Source of the DNA: Clostridia bacterium
GTDB lineage: Bacteria; Bacillota_A; Clostridia; Oscillospirales; CAG-272
Direction: 5' to 3'
Length of the DNA stretch: 37,920 nucleotides
Assembly (NCBI GenBank): GCA_017632155.1
Contig: JAGBRZ010000024.1
Span: forward strand, 1 to 37,920
Made by a program: the position numbers and the translations under genes. Numbering within the stretch: the first letter of the stretch is position 1; each line of letters starts with the position of its first letter. Below the pieces are notes generated by a model. It was not told the DNA's origin and ran no database searches. It saw nothing but the letters and a program-made list of their open reading frames with translations. Positions 9,713-37,920 of the stretch are shown piece after piece.

Positions 9713-10993
9713 ATGATCAGAACAGTTTACAGAAAAGATATCAGCGACAATGAGATATTTGACAGAATAGGCGGAGCACCGGATGTTTCCGCTACCGTCA
9801 GCGAGATCATTGCCGACGTAAAGGCGCGCGGCGACGTTGCGCTCCGTGAATATGCACTCAAGTTTGACCGTGCAGAGCTCGATTCGCTTGAGGTTTCAAA
9901 AGAAGAAATAGATGCGGCTTGTGCCGAGATCGGTGATGATTACATCGGCATGCTCGAGCGCGCGGCGGCGAATATTCGTGATTTTCACAGCCGTCAGGTT
10001 CGTCAGGGCTTTGTTTGCAACAGCCGTGCGGGTGTTTTTGCGGGTCAGAAGGTCATTCCGCTTGAAAGAGTCGGACTTTACGTTCCCGGCGGCACGGCGG
10101 CGTATCCTTCATCCGTGCTTATGAATTGTATTCCCGCCAAGCTTGCGGGAGTCGACGAGATCATTATGGTTACTCCACCGAGCGGTGGAAGCATCCCCGC
10201 GCAGATCCTTGCGGCAGCTCGCGTTGCGGGCGTTGGCCGTATCTTCAAGTGCGGAGGCGCACAGGCTGTTGCCGCGCTGACTTACGGTACAGAAAGCATT
10301 CCCGCTGTTGATAAGATAGTCGGTCCCGGTAATGCTTATGTTGCTGAGGCAAAGCGTCAAGTCAGCGGTAAGGTTGGTGTCGATATGATCGCGGGACCGA
10401 GTGAGATTCTTGTGATCGCGGACTCTAATTCAAATCCCGTTTGGGTTTCAGCAGACCTGCTTTCTCAGGCAGAGCACGACAAGCGCGCATCTGCGGTGCT
10501 TGTAACCGACAGCGCAGAACTTGCCGAAAAGGTAACTCTTGAGATCGAAAAGCAGCTTTTGAGCCTTCCAAGGCAGGAGATCGCGCGCGCTTCGGTTGAT
10601 GACCACGGGCTTATCATCATCGTTGACAGTATCGCCGAAGCGGTTGCAATGTCGAACAGAATTGCTCCCGAGCACCTTGAGCTTTGTGTTGACGATCCCT
10701 TCGGACTTCTCGATAAGGTCAGAAATGCCGGTTCGGTGTTCCTCGGCAGAAACTGCCCCGAGGCGGTCGGTGACTATATGGCGGGTCCGAACCACACGCT
10801 TCCCACATCGGGAACCGCGCGCTTTTACAGCCCGCTTTCGGTTGATGATTTCGTTAAAAAGATGCAATTCACTTATTTTTCCGCCGAGGCGCTTGCCGAT
10901 ATAGCGGATGACGTTGATAATTTTGCCCGCAGTGAGGGCTTTGACGCGCACGCCAGAAGCGTTATGCGCCGTATGGGGAGAGAATACGAATGA
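9713..10993 (+). CDS. hisD: HisD, histidinol dehydrogenase
   Basis: HisD performs the last two oxidations, histidinol to histidine, using NAD and zinc. The 426-residue length is normal. Landmarks are VGPGNAYVAEAKRQV (about 202), GPSEILVIAD (about 226), DLLSQAEHD with zinc ligands Gln and His (about 249), APEHLEL holding the catalytic Glu-His pair (about 319), GPNHTLPTSGTARF and the C-terminal zinc histidine in FDAHARSV. It starts 2 nt after hisG and its stop overlaps hisC by 4 nt (ATGA). Confidence 0.98.
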   Translation: MIRTVYRKDISDNEIFDRIGGAPDVSATVSEIIADVKARGDVALREYALKFDRAELDSLEVSKEEIDAACAEIGDDYIGMLERAAANIRDFHSRQVRQGFVCNSRAGVFAGQKVIPLERVGLYVPGGTAAYPSSVLMNCIPAKLAGVDEIIMVTPPSGGSIPAQILAAARVAGVGRIFKCGGAQAVAALTYGTESIPAVDKIVGPGNAYVAEAKRQVSGKVGVDMIAGPSEILVIADSNSNPVWVSADLLSQAEHDKRASAVLVTDSAELAEKVTLEIEKQLLSLPRQEIARASVDDHGLIIIVDSIAEAVAMSNRIAPEHLELCVDDPFGLLDKVRNAGSVFLGRNCPEAVGDYMAGPNHTLPTSGTARFYSPLSVDDFVKKMQFTYFSAEALADIADDVDNFARSEGFDAHARSVMRRMGREYE

Positions 10994-12051
10994 GCCGTTT
11001 CCTTGCAAAAAAATACAGAACTCTTGATGCCTATGTCCCCGGCGAGCAGCCGAGAGATAAGAGGTACATCAAGCTCAATACAAATGAATTCCCATATCCG
11101 CCCGCACCCGACGTCATAGCTGCGGTCGATGCAAACGTCATATCCGATCTTCGTCTTTATTCCGATCCCACGGCAAAGAATCTTAAAGAATCGCTTGCAA
11201 GATACTACGGCGTGAGTGCTGAAAACGTATTTGTTTCAAACGGCTCGGATGAGTCGCTGAATTTCGCATTTGCCTGCTTCTTTGAGGATGGCGTGGCTTT
11301 TGCTGACCTGACTTACGGTTTTTATTCGGTTTTTGCCGATCTTTACGGCATTGATGCAAAAATTATTCCGCTTGACTCTAATTTTTCGATCGTTCCCGAA
11401 GATTATATGGGACTTGACAGAGGCGCGGTCATTGCAAATCCCAACGCTCCCACGGGAAAGGTACTTCCACTTGCAGATATCGAGCGTATCGTCGCATCGA
11501 ACCCCGACCGTGTTATAGTTGTTGACGAGGCTTACGTTGATTTCGGCGGCGAGAGTGCTATTCCGCTTACAAAGAAATACGATAATCTGCTCGTTTGTAT
11601 GACCTATTCGAAGTCGAGAGGTATGGCGGGTGCAAGACTTGGCTTTGCCATCGGAAACGCAGAGCTTATTGCCGATCTTGAGCTGATGAAGTATTCGACC
11701 AATCCCTACAACCTCGATTCCCTCGCGCTCCGAATGGGCGCGGCGGCGCTTACCGAATCTTCGAAGATTTATTACGAGGAGAAGGTTGGCGAGGTCGTTA
11801 AGGTGAGGGAAGATACCGCAGAGAAGCTTAAAGCGCTCGGAGCAGAAGTGCTCCCGAGCAAGGCAAACTTCCTTTTTGCGAAACTTCCGAGTATTTCGGG
11901 CGGAGAAGCTTACATCAAGCTGCGCGAGCGCGGAATCCTCGTCCGCCATTTCTCGAAGGCGAGGATCAGTGACTATCTGCGAATCAGCATCGGCACAGCA
12001 GAGGATATGAAGACTCTCGTCGATGCCGTGGCTGAGATCATTAAGGAGTAA
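10990..12051 (+). CDS. hisC: HisC, histidinol-phosphate aminotransferase
   Basis: This is a 353-residue class I/II PLP aminotransferase that converts imidazole acetol phosphate to histidinol phosphate. Motifs include LNTNEFPYPP at the N-terminus, FVSNGSDESLNFAF, the NPNAPTGKVLP loop, DEAYVDF with the PLP-binding aspartate, and the Schiff-base lysine in TYSKSRGMAGARLGF (about 211). The substrate Arg region near the end reads YLRISIGTAEDM. GGGGAGAG lies 7 nt before the start, inside hisD, and the ATGA overlap implies translational coupling. Confidence 0.97.
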   Translation: MSRFLAKKYRTLDAYVPGEQPRDKRYIKLNTNEFPYPPAPDVIAAVDANVISDLRLYSDPTAKNLKESLARYYGVSAENVFVSNGSDESLNFAFACFFEDGVAFADLTYGFYSVFADLYGIDAKIIPLDSNFSIVPEDYMGLDRGAVIANPNAPTGKVLPLADIERIVASNPDRVIVVDEAYVDFGGESAIPLTKKYDNLLVCMTYSKSRGMAGARLGFAIGNAELIADLELMKYSTNPYNLDSLALRMGAAALTESSKIYYEEKVGEVVKVREDTAEKLKALGAEVLPSKANFLFAKLPSISGGEAYIKLRERGILVRHFSKARISDYLRISIGTAEDMKTLVDAVAEIIKE

Positions 12052-16855: not shown

Positions 16856-16923
16856 ATATTGTAAGTTTCCTTTTTGAGATTTACATAAATTTGTATTCTA
16901 ACACCAAGGAAGGTGAAATATTT

Positions 16924-18114
16924 ATGGCAAGACTTATCGGAACAGTTTCAAGAGGCGTTCGCGCACCTATTATCAAGGTAGGCGATGATATCGCTACTAT
17001 CGTTGCAGACAGCGTTATTGAAGCAGCAAAGTCGGAAAATCTTGAGATTCGCGACCGCGACGTTATCGCGATGACCGAATCTATCGTTGCCCGTGCTCAG
17101 GGTAACCTCGCAAGCATCGATCAAATTGCGGCAGATGTCCGCGCAAAATTCCCCGGCGGAGAGGCTGCTATCGTATTCCCCATTCTCTCCCGTAACCGTT
17201 TCTCTATCTGCCTTAAGGGTATCGCAAAGGGACTTAAGTCCATCATTATCATGCTTTCATACCCTGCGGATGAGGTAGGAAACCATCTCATTGACATTGA
17301 CGTTTTTGACAGATCCGGTGTAAATCCCGTTACTGACGTTCTCACGGAAGAGAAGTACCGTGAGCTTTTCGGTTACCACAAGCACACCTTTACCGGCGTT
17401 GACTATATCGAATACTACCGCGAGCTTGTTGAGTCCTGCGGCTGTGAGTGCAAGATCATTCTTGCCAACGATGTAAGAGCTATTCTTAACTATACAAAGC
17501 ACGTTATCTGCGCAGATATCCACACCCGCTTCCGCAACAAGAAGCTTCTCAAGGATGCAGGTGCAGAGACCGTTTACGGTATGGATGATATTCTTTCCGC
17601 GCCCGTTAACGGAAGCGGATACAACGAAAACTACGGTCTTCTCGGCTCTAACAAGTCCACTGAGGAAGTTGTTAAGCTCTTCCCCAGAGATTGTCAGCCC
17701 GTTGTTGATGCTGTAAGAGACAAGATCCTTGCCGCTACCGGCAAGTGCGTTGAAGTAATGGTTTACGGCGACGGCGCATTCAAGGATCCCGTAGGAAAGA
17801 TCTGGGAGCTTGCAGACCCCTGCGTATCTCCCGCTTATACCGCAGGACTCGAGGGAACTCCCAACGAGATCAAGCTCAAGTACCTTGCTGATAACGAGTA
17901 TGCTAACCTCTCCGGCGAGGAGCTCAAGGCTGCTATCTCAGAGAGAATCAAGGCGAAGAATTCTAACCTTTACGGTCAGATGGCTTCTCAGGGAACCACT
18001 CCCAGAAGACTCACCGACCTTATCGGTACTCTTTGCGACCTTACCTCCGGTTCCGGTGACAAGGGAACTCCCATCGTTTGGATCCAGGGTTACTTCGATA
18101 ACTATACAAACTAA
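16924..18114 (+). CDS. CofE-like protein (F420-0:gamma-glutamyl ligase superfamily)
   Basis: This 396-residue protein resembles the coenzyme F420-0:gamma-glutamyl ligase superfamily: IIKVGDDIATIVADSVIEA, then RDRDVIAMTESIVARAQGN, and later VMVYGDGAFKDPVGKIWELADP. In true CofE, GTP-dependent glutamate addition occurs; this version is longer than the archaeal enzyme (about 250), and no F420 gene lies nearby, so the substrate is probably different. The ATG at 16924 is preferred over an upstream TTG because AAGGAAGGTG precedes it. It stands alone between its own consensus promoter and a strong terminator, and its codon choice (GTT, CTT, AAG, GAG) looks that of a well-expressed gene. Family call good, reaction unknown. 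Confidence 0.85.
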   Translation: MARLIGTVSRGVRAPIIKVGDDIATIVADSVIEAAKSENLEIRDRDVIAMTESIVARAQGNLASIDQIAADVRAKFPGGEAAIVFPILSRNRFSICLKGIAKGLKSIIIMLSYPADEVGNHLIDIDVFDRSGVNPVTDVLTEEKYRELFGYHKHTFTGVDYIEYYRELVESCGCECKIILANDVRAILNYTKHVICADIHTRFRNKKLLKDAGAETVYGMDDILSAPVNGSGYNENYGLLGSNKSTEEVVKLFPRDCQPVVDAVRDKILAATGKCVEVMVYGDGAFKDPVGKIWELADPCVSPAYTAGLEGTPNEIKLKYLADNEYANLSGEELKAAISERIKAKNSNLYGQMASQGTTPRRLTDLIGTLCDLTSGSGDKGTPIVWIQGYFDNYTN

Positions 18115-32179: not shown

Positions 32180-33079
32180 ATGACACTTTCCGAATTCAGA
32201 GCTCTTCTTTTGAGCGATAAGGCAATCGATATAATTCTTGACACAGATACCTATAACGAGATAGATGATCAGTATGCCCTTGCATACGCAATGCTCTCAA
32301 AAAAGAAGATCAATCTTCTTTCGGTAAATGCCGCTCCTTTCTACAACAGCCGCTCCTCGAGCGCTGAAGAGGGAATGGAGAAAAGTTACAATGAAATCTT
32401 TAATATCATGAAGCTCACAGATGCGGTGATGGCAGAGCAGGTGCCGGTTTACCGCGGAAGCAGACGCTTTATGACTTCGAAGACCGATATCGTCGAGTCG
32501 GATGCTTGCGACAACATTATCAACACGGTAATGTCGCGTGAAACACCCGTCGTCATCGTGGCAATTGGTGCCATCACCAACGTAGCGTCAGCGTTGGCAA
32601 AGGAACCCGAAATTGCCAAGAGAAGCGCGGTCATCTGGCTCGGCGGACACGCCCTCGAGCGCCCCGACACCAAGGAATTTAATCTGCGTCAGGATATTCC
32701 GGGTGCACAGGTACTCTTCGACTCGCGCATCCCCTTCCTTCAGATTCCGTGTGACGGAGTTTGTTCCTCCTTCATCACCACCCCCGCCGAGCTTGATTAT
32801 TACCTCAAGGGTAAGAACGAGCTTTGCAATTACCTTTGCTCGATCACGGGTGATTACATAAGCTGGGGCTACGGAAGATCAAAGGTTGTATGGGATGTAA
32901 CCGCTATCGGATGTATGACTCTTCCCTCGTCGATGGAGATCGTCGAGATCCCGTGTCCTTACGTAACGAGCGATTGCCGTTATGCATTCGACAGCGCGCG
33001 CCATCACTACCTCTATGTCAGAAAGATCAGACGAGATCCTCTCTATGCTGACCTTTTCAGAACATTGAGCGAAAAGTAA
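32180..33079 (+). CDS. Inosine/uridine nucleoside hydrolase-like protein
   Basis: This 299-residue protein is of the IU-nucleoside hydrolase fold. The N-terminal metal site reads LDTDTYNEIDDQYALAYAM (D21, D23, D29, D30), with two residues more than the DTDPGIDD of classical enzymes. Then come VIVAIGAITNVASAL, VIWLGGHALERPDTKEFNLRQD and the late VVWDVTAIGCM, which carries the last calcium-binding Asp. It probably cleaves an N-glycosidic bond, but this variant motif marks a less studied branch and the substrate is unknown. GCGGAGG lies before the ATG, 18 nt after ftsZ, with no separate promoter, so it should be co-transcribed with ftsZ. Confidence 0.88.
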   Translation: MTLSEFRALLLSDKAIDIILDTDTYNEIDDQYALAYAMLSKKKINLLSVNAAPFYNSRSSSAEEGMEKSYNEIFNIMKLTDAVMAEQVPVYRGSRRFMTSKTDIVESDACDNIINTVMSRETPVVIVAIGAITNVASALAKEPEIAKRSAVIWLGGHALERPDTKEFNLRQDIPGAQVLFDSRIPFLQIPCDGVCSSFITTPAELDYYLKGKNELCNYLCSITGDYISWGYGRSKVVWDVTAIGCMTLPSSMEIVEIPCPYVTSDCRYAFDSARHHYLYVRKIRRDPLYADLFRTLSEK

Positions 33080-33081
33080 TT

Positions 33082-33119
33082 AAAAAATCGGCACTTTATT
33101 AAAAAAGTGCCGATTTTTT
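33082..33119 (+). terminator. Rho-independent terminator ending the dcw / nucleoside hydrolase unit
   Basis: AAAAAATCGGCACTT (33082 on) pairs perfectly with AAGTGCCGATTTTTT around an A/T loop, and the right arm ends in six T. It is symmetric and works on both strands. Confidence 0.94.
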
Positions 33120-33120
33120 A

Positions 33121-33149
33121 TTGCAGAATTGAAGAAAAAATGGTATAAT
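33121..33149 (+). promoter_or_regulatory. Extended -10 promoter for the PHP-domain gene
   Basis: TGGTATAAT (33141-33149) is an extended -10 with perfect TATAAT. The -35 (TTGCAG, 17-nt spacer) is poor. It lies directly after the terminator and 40 nt before the gene. Confidence 0.65.
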
Positions 33150-33188
33150 ATATTTGATTAATCTTTTTCTTTAACGGAGGGCTTATTT

Positions 33189-36100
33189 ATGATAAAGAAG
33201 TTTCACGGCGGGGTCCCGAATGTTCTCCATTCTTCCCCCGCGTTTGCAATAGCGGGTGAGCCTTTCAGCATTTCTGCTGCTTGCCGTGCTTATGGCGAAA
33301 ACGCTCCCGAAAAGCTTGTAATGCGTATCGAGGGAGATAAGGAATTTTATCTTATCCCTTCTGATAGATATGACCGACTTGGCGTGTCTTATATGATCTA
33401 TCGCGCAGATATTCCCGCATCGGCGATGAAGGGTGACCGACTCGTTTATCGCATTGATGCCGAAGGCGAGGTAAATGCCAAGCTCCCGCCTTATATCTGT
33501 AAGATCATTGATAAAGAAAGTATGCCTGAGCTTCCTCCCCTCGTGATCACCGAAATCTTCGACAGACCGAAGGGCAAGGATTTTATCACATACGTTGAGC
33601 TTTTCAATCCGACCGAAAAGGCAGTTGACCTTTACGATTACGAAGCGCTCATTTATCCCGCAAAAACAGAACCTGTGGGAGAGCCTAAGGGCAGACTGCC
33701 TCTTTCCAGAGAAGCGGGCAAATATGTTCTCGGTGCGGGCGAGTCCGCGGCTTATTGGCCGATCACCTTAAAAAACTATCTGCCCGAAGCAAATTGCTTC
33801 ACTAAGGAAGATTTTATTGCACATATCAATGCAACTTATTTTTATTCCAAAGATCCGATCGATGAGGGGAACGTTAAGATTTTCCCCGTCGATCTTACCG
33901 AGCCCGACGAAAAGACGGGCGGTCTGAAGCATATTGACGGAATTTGGTCGCTACCGAACGGTCACGATGCAACTACCGTTTTGATAGTACCGCGCGGAGG
34001 TGATGCGACAAGCGCTGTGTTCACTCTTGTTTACAGCGATTGCTATGCTGAGTGGGATACACCCGTGCATCGCTCGTCATATTGGACGTTTGATCCTATG
34101 AATCCAAGCCGCGCGATCAATCTTACTCACGCAGAGTTCGCCACCCCGGGATATCCCGCATATATGCAGACGGGTAAATTCGATCTGACGTCTCCCGCAC
34201 CCACTATTCTTCCTATTGCTCCGATCAAGGAAGCCTATCACGGTGACTATTGCGGAACTATCGAGTTTACCGTTCTCACCGCGGATCCCGATTGCAAAAT
34301 CGGAAAAGCCTCTGTTGCTGTAACTCTGCCAAATGGAGAAACCGAGGAATATGAGGCTCGTGAGGAGCACGACGGTATTTACCGTGCCCGTATTCCAGAG
34401 GAAATATTTGAAGAATTCTTTGAGCTTGAATACGTTATCAAGGTTTCCGACGGTGCGAGAGAGTTCACACTTGGAAGCGTTCTTCCTCTCCGCGTGCCCG
34501 TTTATGATAATCGCGGTCCGAGAATCACCTCAATGGTTCCCTCCCGCGGATATGCTTATGACGGTACAAAGCCGATAGTTATCAAGGCGAACTATACCGA
34601 TGCTTCGGGTATCCGAATCAAGGATTGCTATCTGAAGCTTGACGGCAAGGACGTTACGAATGACGCGACCATAACAGCTACTTCACTTGTTTACGAACCG
34701 AAAAAGCCTATTGAATTCGGCGATCACACTCTGACTATCCGCCTCAAGGACGGTCTTGGAAACCGCACGACGAGAACGGTTGAGTTCATCGTTTCCGATA
34801 TGACCGAGCTTAATGCTTATTTCGGCGAGATCCATGCTCACACCGGTGAATCGGACGGAAACGGACTTTGCCGAGATGCGATAGAATTTGCCTATGATAA
34901 CGGTGCCGATTTCTTCTCGGTCACAGAGCACTCGCACTATTTTACTCAAAAAGCATACGACGAGCAGAAGCGCGTCGCAAATTCCCTCGACCGACCCGGC
35001 AGATTCGCCGCACTTTACGGTTGGGAGATGACCTGGAATAATACTTGTGGATATTGGGGACATATGAACGTTATCGGAAGCGAGCGAGTCGTTTCGGATA
35101 TTCACGCTGTCGGTATGCCCGAGCTCTTCAAGTGGCTTGAAGGTGAGCCGAATGCAGTTGGTATGTTCAATCATCCCGGTCAGGCTTGGGGTGATTTTGA
35201 AGATTACGGTTTTTGGTCACCGGAGGCAGACCGTCAGATGGCTCTCGCCGAGATCAAGGGCAGAGGATACGATCTGCAATATGCTCTCCTCCTTTCGCGC
35301 GGATGGCACGTTGCTCCCTCATTCAATGAGGATAATCACGCGCCCAACTGGACGGTGGCTTCTCCTTACATCACGGGAGTTCTCGCACCCGCGCTCACCC
35401 GTGAAAACGTGATGGAGGCATTCCGCGCCCGCCGTGTTTATTCGAGCGCAGATCCAACAATGAAGATCTATTATAAGATCAACGGCGAGTGGATGGGTTC
35501 AAGGCTCAATAATCCGAGCGCACTCAATGTTTCCGTAAAGATAACAACAGAAAATGAAAACGGTATTGGCCGCATCGAGATCATCGGCGAGGATAATGTT
35601 CTCGTCGCGTACAAGTCCGTCGGCGCGCGTCAAAGCTACGAATGGAACGTAACTCTTCCCGTTGAGTTTGATTATTACTATATCCGCATTCAAAACGGAC
35701 AACAGTATTCGGTTACCGCGCCCGTTTGGGTAGAGAACAGACAGGAACCGAAGGTTCTTTCTATGGTCCATTCCGCATCTTACGATCCGCGCGAAAGCTC
35801 GGCGGTTACTCTCAAGGTGGAAAATCCGACCGAAAAGACGATGGATGAGGTCAGAATCGACTTCTATCTTACCGGAATCGAAGGATTTTCGCTCCGCGAT
35901 GCTGTTCCTTATGCAAAGGTCTGCATCGGTAAGCTCAAGCCCGGAAGACACGTCAGCGTTACACGCCAGCTCCCCGAAATATCGAAGAATCGACGCGTGA
36001 CTGCGATCGTCTCCGCCGTTTCGGATAAGAAGGTTCGCAAGGCGACTGCTTATATTCTTCTTTCGCCCATCAGCATCACCGAGGTGCTTTGCGCATCAGG

Positions 36101-36815
36101 TGCTATCGAGCGCGATGGCGAAACTATCGAAAATCCCTTCCCCTATGTCACACTTTGCAACAATTCGGGCAATGATATTACCCTCAAGGATTCAAAGCTT
36201 GCTCTTTGGACCACCACGGGTAAGCCGCCGAAGGAGGAGAATATCTGGACTGCGGACGGCGTGAAGCTTCCCGCAAGAGGTGCGGTTGTGATCTGGTATC
36301 GCAAGCCGGAAAACGAGGCTTTGACTGTCGAAGACTTCAACCGCAGATTCGGTACTTCTCTCATCGAGGGTGAGAGCATCTTCATTTGCGATAAGCCGAT
36401 CACATCGAGAGCAACTGCGGGCAGAAGACTCGATCTTATTGTCGGTGGCGAGGTCATTTCTCGTGTTACCTGGAATATGGGCGAGCGTTACGGTCAGGAT
36501 GCAGAGGTTGGCGAGGCATATAAGTACCGCTTTGATTGCGATATGTCTCCGCTTGGGGTATTCTGCGGAAAGGGAAATCCCACGCCCGGAAGCGTGGATT
36601 ATAAGCAGCTCGGCGCACGCTTGGCTGTTGAACCTACGCACAAGGAGATCAAGAGCGCAAAGAAGCAATCCAAAAAGGATGCAAAGCGCGCAAAGCACAA
36701 GGCACAGATCAAGTATACTACGGCTGAGGCGGGTGCTATTGCAGCCGGAAGCGCAGCCCTTGCAGCATTTGCCGCCGCTGCTATTACCAAAGCTTTGACA
36801 AAGAGAAATAAATGA
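33189..36815 (+). CDS. Large PHP-domain (CehA/McbA-like) metallohydrolase with lamin-tail-like domains and hydrophobic C-terminus
   Basis: 1208 residues. Residues 1-110 are an uncharacterised beta region with no signal peptide. About 116-330 resemble a lamin-tail (LTD) domain (PLVITEIFDRPKGKDF, YVELFNPTEKAVDLYDYE). About 345-540 look like Ig-type beta domains. The PHP core starts near 544: YFGEIHAHTGESDG with H549 and H551, VTEHSHYF, YGWEMTW, MFNHPGQAWGDF and the CehA-type GWHVAPSFNEDNH. A second LTD-like domain (SPISITEVLCASG) is near 960. The end is a Lys-rich stretch (KKQSKKDAKRAKHK), then a hydrophobic helix of about 22 Ala-rich residues and KRNK. It probably hydrolyses a phosphoester or another ester; the substrate is unknown. 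CGGAGG lies 8 nt before the ATG. It is coupled to manA. Confidence 0.85.
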   Translation: MIKKFHGGVPNVLHSSPAFAIAGEPFSISAACRAYGENAPEKLVMRIEGDKEFYLIPSDRYDRLGVSYMIYRADIPASAMKGDRLVYRIDAEGEVNAKLPPYICKIIDKESMPELPPLVITEIFDRPKGKDFITYVELFNPTEKAVDLYDYEALIYPAKTEPVGEPKGRLPLSREAGKYVLGAGESAAYWPITLKNYLPEANCFTKEDFIAHINATYFYSKDPIDEGNVKIFPVDLTEPDEKTGGLKHIDGIWSLPNGHDATTVLIVPRGGDATSAVFTLVYSDCYAEWDTPVHRSSYWTFDPMNPSRAINLTHAEFATPGYPAYMQTGKFDLTSPAPTILPIAPIKEAYHGDYCGTIEFTVLTADPDCKIGKASVAVTLPNGETEEYEAREEHDGIYRARIPEEIFEEFFELEYVIKVSDGAREFTLGSVLPLRVPVYDNRGPRITSMVPSRGYAYDGTKPIVIKANYTDASGIRIKDCYLKLDGKDVTNDATITATSLVYEPKKPIEFGDHTLTIRLKDGLGNRTTRTVEFIVSDMTELNAYFGEIHAHTGESDGNGLCRDAIEFAYDNGADFFSVTEHSHYFTQKAYDEQKRVANSLDRPGRFAALYGWEMTWNNTCGYWGHMNVIGSERVVSDIHAVGMPELFKWLEGEPNAVGMFNHPGQAWGDFEDYGFWSPEADRQMALAEIKGRGYDLQYALLLSRGWHVAPSFNEDNHAPNWTVASPYITGVLAPALTRENVMEAFRARRVYSSADPTMKIYYKINGEWMGSRLNNPSALNVSVKITTENENGIGRIEIIGEDNVLVAYKSVGARQSYEWNVTLPVEFDYYYIRIQNGQQYSVTAPVWVENRQEPKVLSMVHSASYDPRESSAVTLKVENPTEKTMDEVRIDFYLTGIEGFSLRDAVPYAKVCIGKLKPGRHVSVTRQLPEISKNRRVTAIVSAVSDKKVRKATAYILLSPISITEVLCASGAIERDGETIENPFPYVTLCNNSGNDITLKDSKLALWTTTGKPPKEENIWTADGVKLPARGAVVIWYRKPENEALTVEDFNRRFGTSLIEGESIFICDKPITSRATAGRRLDLIVGGEVISRVTWNMGERYGQDAEVGEAYKYRFDCDMSPLGVFCGKGNPTPGSVDYKQLGARLAVEPTHKEIKSAKKQSKKDAKRAKHKAQIKYTTAEAGAIAAGSAALAAFAAAAITKALTKRNK

Positions 36816-37711
36816 TGAAATATCCTATAATTTTATCACCTATTGCAAAAACTCGCGTTTGGGGCGGAGATAGACTCTCCGCTCTCGGCGCAGAGCCTCC
36901 GATCGGCGAGCATTGGGTGCTTTCGGTTCGTGAGGATGATAATAATAAGATCGTAAACGGTGAATTTGCGGGGAAGAGGCTTGACTCTGTTTTGGAGTCG
37001 CATCCCGAATTCCTTGGTACCGATTGCGCGAAGGACAAGTTCCCCTTGCTGATCAAATTTATTGATTCAAAAGAGTCCCTTTCTATACAGGTGCATCCAG
37101 ATGATATTTCCGCCGCCGAGCTTGGCGAGGAATGCGGAAAGACCGAGATGTGGTATATCATCGATGCTGAGCCCGATTCGTATATTTATTTCGGTATCAA
37201 GGACGAATACTCCGAAGATGAAGTAAAAAATGCCATTCTTTCGGGAAATGATCCTACGCCTTATCTCAACAAAGTATCCGTCAAAGCGGGTGACTGCTAT
37301 TTCATCGCAGGCGGAACGCCTCACGCTATCGGCGGCGGTAACTATATCTGCGAAATACAGCAGAATTGCGATACGACCTACCGTATTTATGATTACGGCA
37401 GACCGCGCGAGCTCCACTTGAATCAGGCGGCGGTGTCGATCAAGAAAAACGCGATAGAATATACTAAAAATGACAATATCCTTGCCAAGTGCGAGTATTT
37501 TACATCTGAGCTTGTAAAGGTAAACGGTGAAAAGTATATCGATGCAATACCCGAAAAGTTTATTTCTTTGACGATCGTCAAGGGTAACGGATGCATAATT
37601 GCAGGCGATAATGAATATCCCGTTCGGGAAAGAGATTCCGTTTTTATTCCCGCGGGAGAAGAGAAGTATCTTCTTCGCGGAAATATTGAGCTTATCAAAA
37701 CTACAATATAA
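36812..37711 (+). CDS. manA: Mannose-6-phosphate isomerase, class I
   Basis: This 299-residue zinc enzyme of the cupin fold interconverts mannose-6-phosphate and fructose-6-phosphate. Zinc ligands and family motifs are LSIQVHPDD (about 90), GKTEMWYI (about 109) and FIAGGTPHAIGGGN (about 170), with the catalytic Arg region YRIYDYGRPRELH. N-terminal TRVWGGDRLSAL and IGEHWVLS match the short Bacillus-type enzymes. The start overlaps the PHP gene stop by 4 nt (ATGA); a second ATG at 36815 is also possible. The Shine-Dalgarno is weak, so translation probably depends on coupling. Confidence 0.95.
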   Translation: MMKYPIILSPIAKTRVWGGDRLSALGAEPPIGEHWVLSVREDDNNKIVNGEFAGKRLDSVLESHPEFLGTDCAKDKFPLLIKFIDSKESLSIQVHPDDISAAELGEECGKTEMWYIIDAEPDSYIYFGIKDEYSEDEVKNAILSGNDPTPYLNKVSVKAGDCYFIAGGTPHAIGGGNYICEIQQNCDTTYRIYDYGRPRELHLNQAAVSIKKNAIEYTKNDNILAKCEYFTSELVKVNGEKYIDAIPEKFISLTIVKGNGCIIAGDNEYPVRERDSVFIPAGEEKYLLRGNIELIKTTI

Positions 37712-37714
37712 AAC

Positions 37715-37746
37715 AAAAAACCGATGCGTTTCCGCATCGGTTTTTT
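37715..37746. terminator. Bidirectional Rho-independent terminator between manA and rplL
   Basis: A 14-bp perfect stem AAAAAACCGATGCG/CGCATCGGTTTTTT with a 4-nt loop (TTTC) has T-runs on both strands. It serves manA on the plus strand and the convergent rplL on the minus strand. Confidence 0.94.
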
Positions 37747-37791
37747 GCACAGCAAGGATTTTCGGATGTGCAAAATATGTGTGGGATTAAA

Positions 37792-37920
37792 TTACTTAAT
37801 CTCAACGGTAGCGCCAGCCTCGGTAAGAGCAGCCTTGATGGACTCAGCTTCTTCCTTAGCAACGCCTTCCTTAAGGGTCTTGGGAGCGCCCTCAACGAGC
37901 TCCTTAGCTTCCTTAAGTCC
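37792..37920 (-). CDS. rplL: Ribosomal protein L7/L12, C-terminal part (partial)
   Basis: Read on the minus strand, the last 42 residues are [15 protein letters not shown], then [17 protein letters not shown] and [10 protein letters not shown], the conserved C-terminal domain of L7/L12 that contacts elongation factors on the ribosome stalk. The stop (TAA) is at 37794-37792 and the gene runs off the right edge. Optimal codons such as CTT and AAG fit a highly expressed gene. It converges on manA and probably ends at the bidirectional terminator. The usual rplJ neighbour should lie beyond the edge. Confidence 0.97.

Follow-up and report, generated by a model that had tools for sequence, protein, structure and literature searches.

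Lamin-tail domains (LTDs) in bacteria have so far been taken as a sign of an extracellular location, so where does a protein work that carries two of them around a metallohydrolase core, and on what? The question is raised by a gene near the end of a 37,920-nucleotide contig from a Clostridia bacterium (assembly GCA_017632155.1, contig JAGBRZ010000024.1; this whole stretch is the window), which codes for a protein of 1,208 residues (33189..36815, forward strand; ATG start, TGA at 36813-36815) and is followed directly by manA. A sequence-only reading had proposed a tail-anchored cytoplasmic enzyme, or a protein exported by an unrecognized route, working on a mannose-linked phosphate metabolite; the open reading frame on which it was based is confirmed. 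We favor a PHP phosphoesterase that faces the cytosol, is probably tethered to the membrane, and carries its catalytic core on a rod of Ig-like and lamin-tail domains, a reading drawn from sequence and a predicted structure that we consider evenly balanced between right and wrong.

A PHP core within an Ig-like and lamin-tail rod

The catalytic core (residues 541-755; 34809..35453, forward strand, as are all protein domains below) is of the CehA/McbA type. It matches NF038032 (CehA/McbA family metallohydrolase) at 91.2 bits against a cut-off of 80 and over nearly the full profile (positions 3-315 of 315; residues 544-849), matches DUF3604 at 27.8 bits (cut-off 20.4), and has the PHP superfamily fold. 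We scored 7998 candidates from about 5.8 billion proteins and obtained 76 hits. Of these, 74 relatives (P0002-P0075; 32-88% identity) can be aligned along the protein, including three shortened ones (P0037, P0043, and P0075); the other two (P0076 and P0077) are distant. The proteins of loci L013 (97.9 bits), L026 (91.9), and L031 (90.1) also exceed the NF038032 cut-off, and those of L017 (79.4) and L043 (71.9) lie below it. The H549-A-H551 and GWHVAP...EDNH motifs named in the sequence-only reading are present, and H549, H551, D556, H581, E613, H625, H662, D715, and H717 are invariant columns in a 75-row alignment. These nine residues do not vary in any of 44 proteins compared, paralogs included, and we treat them as a putative metal site defined by conservation, not by mapping onto CehA.

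Metal binding by this core is likely, and phosphoester hydrolysis is its most likely chemistry. CehA itself is a carbamate esterase in which four histidines are reported as important (PMC8292978); this weighs against the phosphoesterase assignment, and because of it other chemistry is possible for the core. The setting also differs from that of known relatives, as here the core stands among two LTDs, five Ig-like domains, and a tail. BVU_3505 (PDB 3e38), a two-domain PHP-like protein, is a chain of 342 residues with no room for LTDs and a tail, and the PHP phosphoesterase TM0559 (PDB 2anu) has only 222; both have predicted functions.

Structure prediction, for which the sequence-only reading had called, yields a confident layout of Ig-LTD-Ig-Ig-PHP-Ig-Ig-LTD (AlphaFold2, mean pLDDT 90.3), with the tail helix at low confidence. 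The first lamin-tail-like domain is enlarged (residues 113-335; 33525..34193) and the second spans residues 959-1125 (36063..36563). Pfam LTD (PF00932) matches the protein in two stretches, the best at residues 117-152, with a score of 34.1 bits that is just under the gathering cut-off of 34.3. That cut-off is reached in four of five further proteins scanned (L013, 42.2 bits; L026, 37.2; L017, 38.5; L031, 47.6), with the best stretch of L026 and L031 in the region equivalent to the second domain, and no LTD match was found in the fifth, L043. The two regions are homologous to each other by profile comparison (hhalign probability 97.4%, E 1.3e-11), whereas ten pairings of Ig-like with lamin-tail regions all gave at most 1.1%. 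The Ig-like regions (one domain at residues 1-112, 33189..33524, with boundaries set by us; two at 336-540, 34194..34808; two at 756-958, 35454..36062) consist mainly of strands in the model. Their Big_7 (residues 444-517), Big_13, and Big_9 matches are all sub-threshold, as is a CARDB match in one lipoprotein paralog at the equivalent of the second Ig-like domain in 756-958. Both the paired lamin-tail-like regions and the Ig-like regions of the sequence-only reading therefore stand.

Two paralog types help to place the protein. Lipoprotein paralogs (e.g., L031, 869 residues) match it from about residue 430-470 to 1140, that is, the PHP-Ig-Ig-LTD half, with identical invariant residues. Unlike it, they start with a signal peptide that ends at a lipobox-like cysteine (read in L031, L033, L038, L040, L112, and L113, among others) and have an exported-type composition, and neither the N-terminal LTD nor the tail is present; for the L114 paralog the evidence of a signal is its N-terminal hydrophobic stretch. 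The third type, of about 977 residues (L042, L043, and L045), is signal-less, its PHP domain standing at the very N terminus.

The C-terminal tail and cell location

The absence of an N-terminal signal peptide, as claimed earlier, is borne out. Taking a hydrophobicity score (KD19) of at least 1.6 in the first 50 residues as the criterion for an N-terminal hydrophobic stretch, 74 of the 75 proteins, including that of the window, lack one (the exception is P0047, at 1.64). Amino acid composition of the homologous core points the same way. The focal family (n=30) has 1.43% Cys, 17.9% Ser+Thr+Asn (STN), and an R/(K+R) of 0.62, compared with 0.66%, 24.0%, and 0.33 in the lipoprotein paralogs (n=10) and 2.09%, 16.1%, and 0.56 in the PHP-first type (n=3). 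All three measures differ in the same direction in each of six same-genome focal/lipoprotein pairs (L001/L031, L002/L040, L003/L033, L004/L038, L013/L028, and L012/L029). Against 72 proteins of cytoplasmic families from the same loci (STN 15.1%, R/(R+K) 0.53), the focal proteins fit (16.3%, 0.58) but the lipoprotein paralogs do not (23.2%, 0.32). A cytoplasmic location is favored over hidden export because the focal composition is cytoplasm-like, and unlike that of the paralog, in all six pairs.

The C terminus is as the sequence-only reading described it, with a Lys-rich stretch (residues 1143-1173; 36615..36707; helical at 1151-1173 in the model), a 19-residue Ala-rich hydrophobic segment that is a putative membrane tether (residues 1181-1199; 36729..36785; KD19 1.87; low-confidence helix at 1178-1199), and a TKALTKRNK end; residues 1126-1208 carry a net charge of +13. 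The tail sequence is nearly unchanged in L001-L004 and is replaced or missing elsewhere. Of the 75 proteins, 49 reach a KD19 of at least 1.6 within the last 75 residues, and a further eight score 1.2-1.6 there. Of the remaining 18, three are the shortened proteins and seven stop once the second LTD is complete; in three more, a long additional extension follows a hydrophobic segment that sits deeper in the chain, and the last five have weaker ends that look amphipathic. At the 33 loci that include the whole 3' end of the gene, 16 have the Lys-rich and hydrophobic tail, 12 an amphipathic-looking one (a class assigned by sequence likeness, with the hydrophobic moment computed for two such loci and one database protein), one an internal segment (L024, KD19 1.92 at residue 1189), and four no tail. 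The hydrophobic type is present at all eight loci where manA adjoins the gene.

In the reading we prefer, a metal-dependent hydrolase of the CehA/McbA branch would face the cytosol, with its catalytic core built onto the domain rod and the basic stalk and Ala-rich helix probably holding it at the inner face of the cytoplasmic membrane. Tethering of this kind is plausible and, in the most economical reading, probable for the window's clade, while some genomes add an exported twin. Several observations count against this reading as a whole. The tail KD19 of 1.87 is well below that of FtsQ membrane helices from the same loci (2.36-3.03), and a KD19 of 1.6 is reached somewhere in 23 of the 72 cytoplasmic controls, so membrane insertion is uncertain; the tail helix is modeled with low confidence; and 17 unrelated lipoprotein-like open reading frames are intermediate in composition (STN 18.7%, R/(R+K) 0.41), the composition argument being a statistical one. 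Homologs without the hydrophobic tail, which the sequence-only reading would have counted against itself, do occur: seven of 75 have no tail at all and others a different, amphipathic one. What survives of its tail-anchored enzyme is a favored cytoplasmic location and a plausible membrane insertion.

The modest tail hydrophobicity and the cytoplasmic controls that reach 1.6 also suit a soluble cytoplasmic enzyme whose Lys/Ala-rich tail serves in oligomerization or in binding nucleic acid or an acidic surface, as do the small residues and positive charge of the tail and the retention of the rest of the protein in tail-less relatives. However, none of the 72 cytoplasmic controls shows a comparable stretch within 75 residues of its C terminus, and the segment follows a positive stretch at 16 of 33 loci, which leaves this alternative possible but rather unlikely. 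A surface protein using an unrecognized export route, with the tail serving to retain it in the wall or membrane, would agree with LTDs being described as external domains (PMC12419801), and with the lipoprotein signal of the paralog that shares half the architecture. Set against this are the missing N-terminal segment, the cytoplasm-like composition, and a PHP-first paralog that is itself signal-less, and we regard export as distinctly improbable. The focal protein resembles external LTD proteins in its two LTD-type domains but belongs to a family that appears intracellular. A broader proposal, which we hold only tentatively and with more doubt than belief, is that this is an intracellular bacterial lamin-tail protein, an LTD/Ig rod at the inner membrane face that scaffolds a metal phosphoesterase and evolved beside an exported lipoprotein twin, with the same catalytic module on both sides of the membrane. 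A two-LTD family without an export signal and a signal-bearing twin, found in some of the same genomes, form a natural pair for studying what LTDs and Ig-like domains do in the cytoplasm, and the pair also bears on the substrates of the uncharacterized CehA/McbA-type enzymes in gut Clostridia.

Linkage to manA and other neighbors

The manA gene (36812..37711, forward strand; mannose-6-phosphate isomerase class I, TIGR00218 127.1 bits against a cut-off of 116.2) overlaps the focal stop codon in an ATGA junction of 4 nt, as previously noted, although an in-frame second ATG at 36815 means that the real overlap could be 1 nt. A terminator-like hairpin (37713..37748) would end the two-gene unit, and the order of focal gene, 4-nt overlap, manA, and hairpin is kept in L001-L004. 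Upstream lies a nucleoside-hydrolase family gene (32180..33079, forward strand; IU_nuc_hydro 80.8 bits), the last of the division/cell-wall (dcw) cluster, followed by a hairpin resembling an intrinsic terminator (33081..33120; 17-pair stem) that has a counterpart at this position in L002, L003, and L004. It is near-symmetric, with A and T runs, and the terminator scan assigns it to the reverse strand; that scan reported eight sites in the region against 6.6 in shuffled sequence, a total not above shuffles. Comparison of the window with L002-L004 reveals a likely promoter, TTGCAG-17-TATAAT with TGG directly 5' of the -10 element (33121..33149, forward strand), whose elements and spacing are identical in all four; a consensus scan missed it, the first hexamer having three of six matches to TTGACA. 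A GGAGGG ribosome-binding site (33176..33181, forward strand) lies 7 nt 5' of the ATG. The L001 sequence starts at the focal gene. The nucleoside-hydrolase gene is probably a separate transcription unit, and the focal gene and manA probably form a two-gene unit apart from the dcw cluster, likely cotranscribed and, in the window's clade, with probable translational coupling.

The ManA coupling is real and recurrent but is not a family-wide trait. Where 1.1 kb or more of downstream sequence is available (32 loci, the window included), manA adjoins the focal gene at eight (the window, L001-L004, L017, L018, and L020). L017, L018, and L020 belong to a separate clade, also with the 4-nt overlap and a hairpin after manA, although the L017 copy scores 90.1 bits, below the TIGR00218 cut-off. 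An adjacent manA was not found at the other 24 loci, even with a ManA profile search. The sequence-only reading would have been undermined by a neighborhood survey in which manA is not associated with this gene, and that holds for these loci but not for the operon-like arrangement of the two clades. We found no description of this architecture or its manA pairing in our searches of the open-license literature, in keeping with the earlier impression that the pairing looks undescribed.

An enzyme dedicated to a mannose-linked phosphate metabolite, with its product passed to ManA, would explain the overlap at all eight linked loci, the recurrence in two clades (at least three changes on the tree), and the adjacent copy being the sole manA detected in each of seven linked genomes searched. 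However, of the 16 family-carrying genomes searched, the other nine have manA elsewhere in five (a weak match of 32.5 bits in G010) and none detected in four, including that of L019 from the L017 clade, and the manA tree leaves open whether the two linkages arose independently. Other loci have different partners. A DUF554 membrane protein (231.9 bits in L026) is directly upstream in 15 loci, mostly within 40 nt (L014, L018, L021-L026, L032, L037, L041, L050, L087, L088, and L094), and a GH20C-type glycosidase in eight (L007-L013 and L027; Glyco_H_20C_C 196.4 bits in L013), with no obvious signal peptide in the GH20C N termini read. Because manA adjoins at only eight of 32 loci, with GH20C or DUF554 genes at others, support for a mannose substrate is weak, and the dedicated mannose enzyme is unlikely; what stands of that earlier claim is a nonrandom adjacency. 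The partners ManA, GH20C, nucleoside hydrolase, and DUF554 hint at sugar or nucleoside salvage, and the linked ManA, GH20C, and DUF554 genes provide substrate leads. The substrate or product of the tethered phosphoesterase that we favor may be a small sugar derivative, with ManA handling a mannose branch in some lineages only.

A role in cell division or wall synthesis could be read from the position after the dcw cluster, as murG, ftsQ, and ftsZ are upstream in 12 loci (the window, L002-L005, L008-L013, and L027), of which L011-L013 are in a different clade. Yet the hairpin and the gene's own likely promoter intervene at all four window-clade loci with upstream sequence, no matches to these three genes were found in the flanks of the DUF554 clade and L017-L020, and the remaining cases can be put down to inherited gene order, so we consider this very improbable. 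At L006 the GH20C gene is one gene away from the focal gene, and between them is a small open reading frame (445-1401; 318 residues) with a PHP-like HTHS motif at its start.

Distribution and further features

Named genome records for the family are metagenome-assembled genomes of Clostridia, Clostridiales, Oscillospiraceae, and Ruminococcus, many of them from the gut of goat, cattle, yak, horse, sheep, or roe deer. The family profile matches 12 of the 13 genomes searched in the genus to which the close relative G004 belongs and all five in that of G011. Across the wider taxonomic family it matches 30 of 295 sampled genomes, a figure that takes in some with a paralog or a fragment only. The lipoprotein paralog is present in seven of the 13 G004-genus genomes (G001-G004, G006, G007, and G571). 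Lipoprotein paralogs at L028-L031, L033, L034, L036, and L038-L040 are 860-897 residues as called, with two tandem copies at L031. PHP-first paralogs occur as tandem pairs at L043 (10001-15950) and L045 (10007-15943) and one lies at L042 (8612-11545), and the C-terminal region of the L043 protein is GDSL-lipase-like (31.5 bits, just below the cut-off of 32.9).

Elsewhere in the window, long open reading frames of 605 and 582 residues overlap on opposite strands (308-2176), with no Pfam match at 1e-5 found for the forward-strand frame, the one searched. A gene for an F420-0:gamma-glutamyl ligase family protein (16891-18111; 182.8 bits) sits in this Clostridia-like genome, and at 37800-37920, on the convergent strand, are C-terminal residues that we take to resemble the end of a ribosomal L7/L12 gene. 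Tandem histidinol dehydrogenase and aminotransferase genes (9713-12048) are probably part of a histidine operon.
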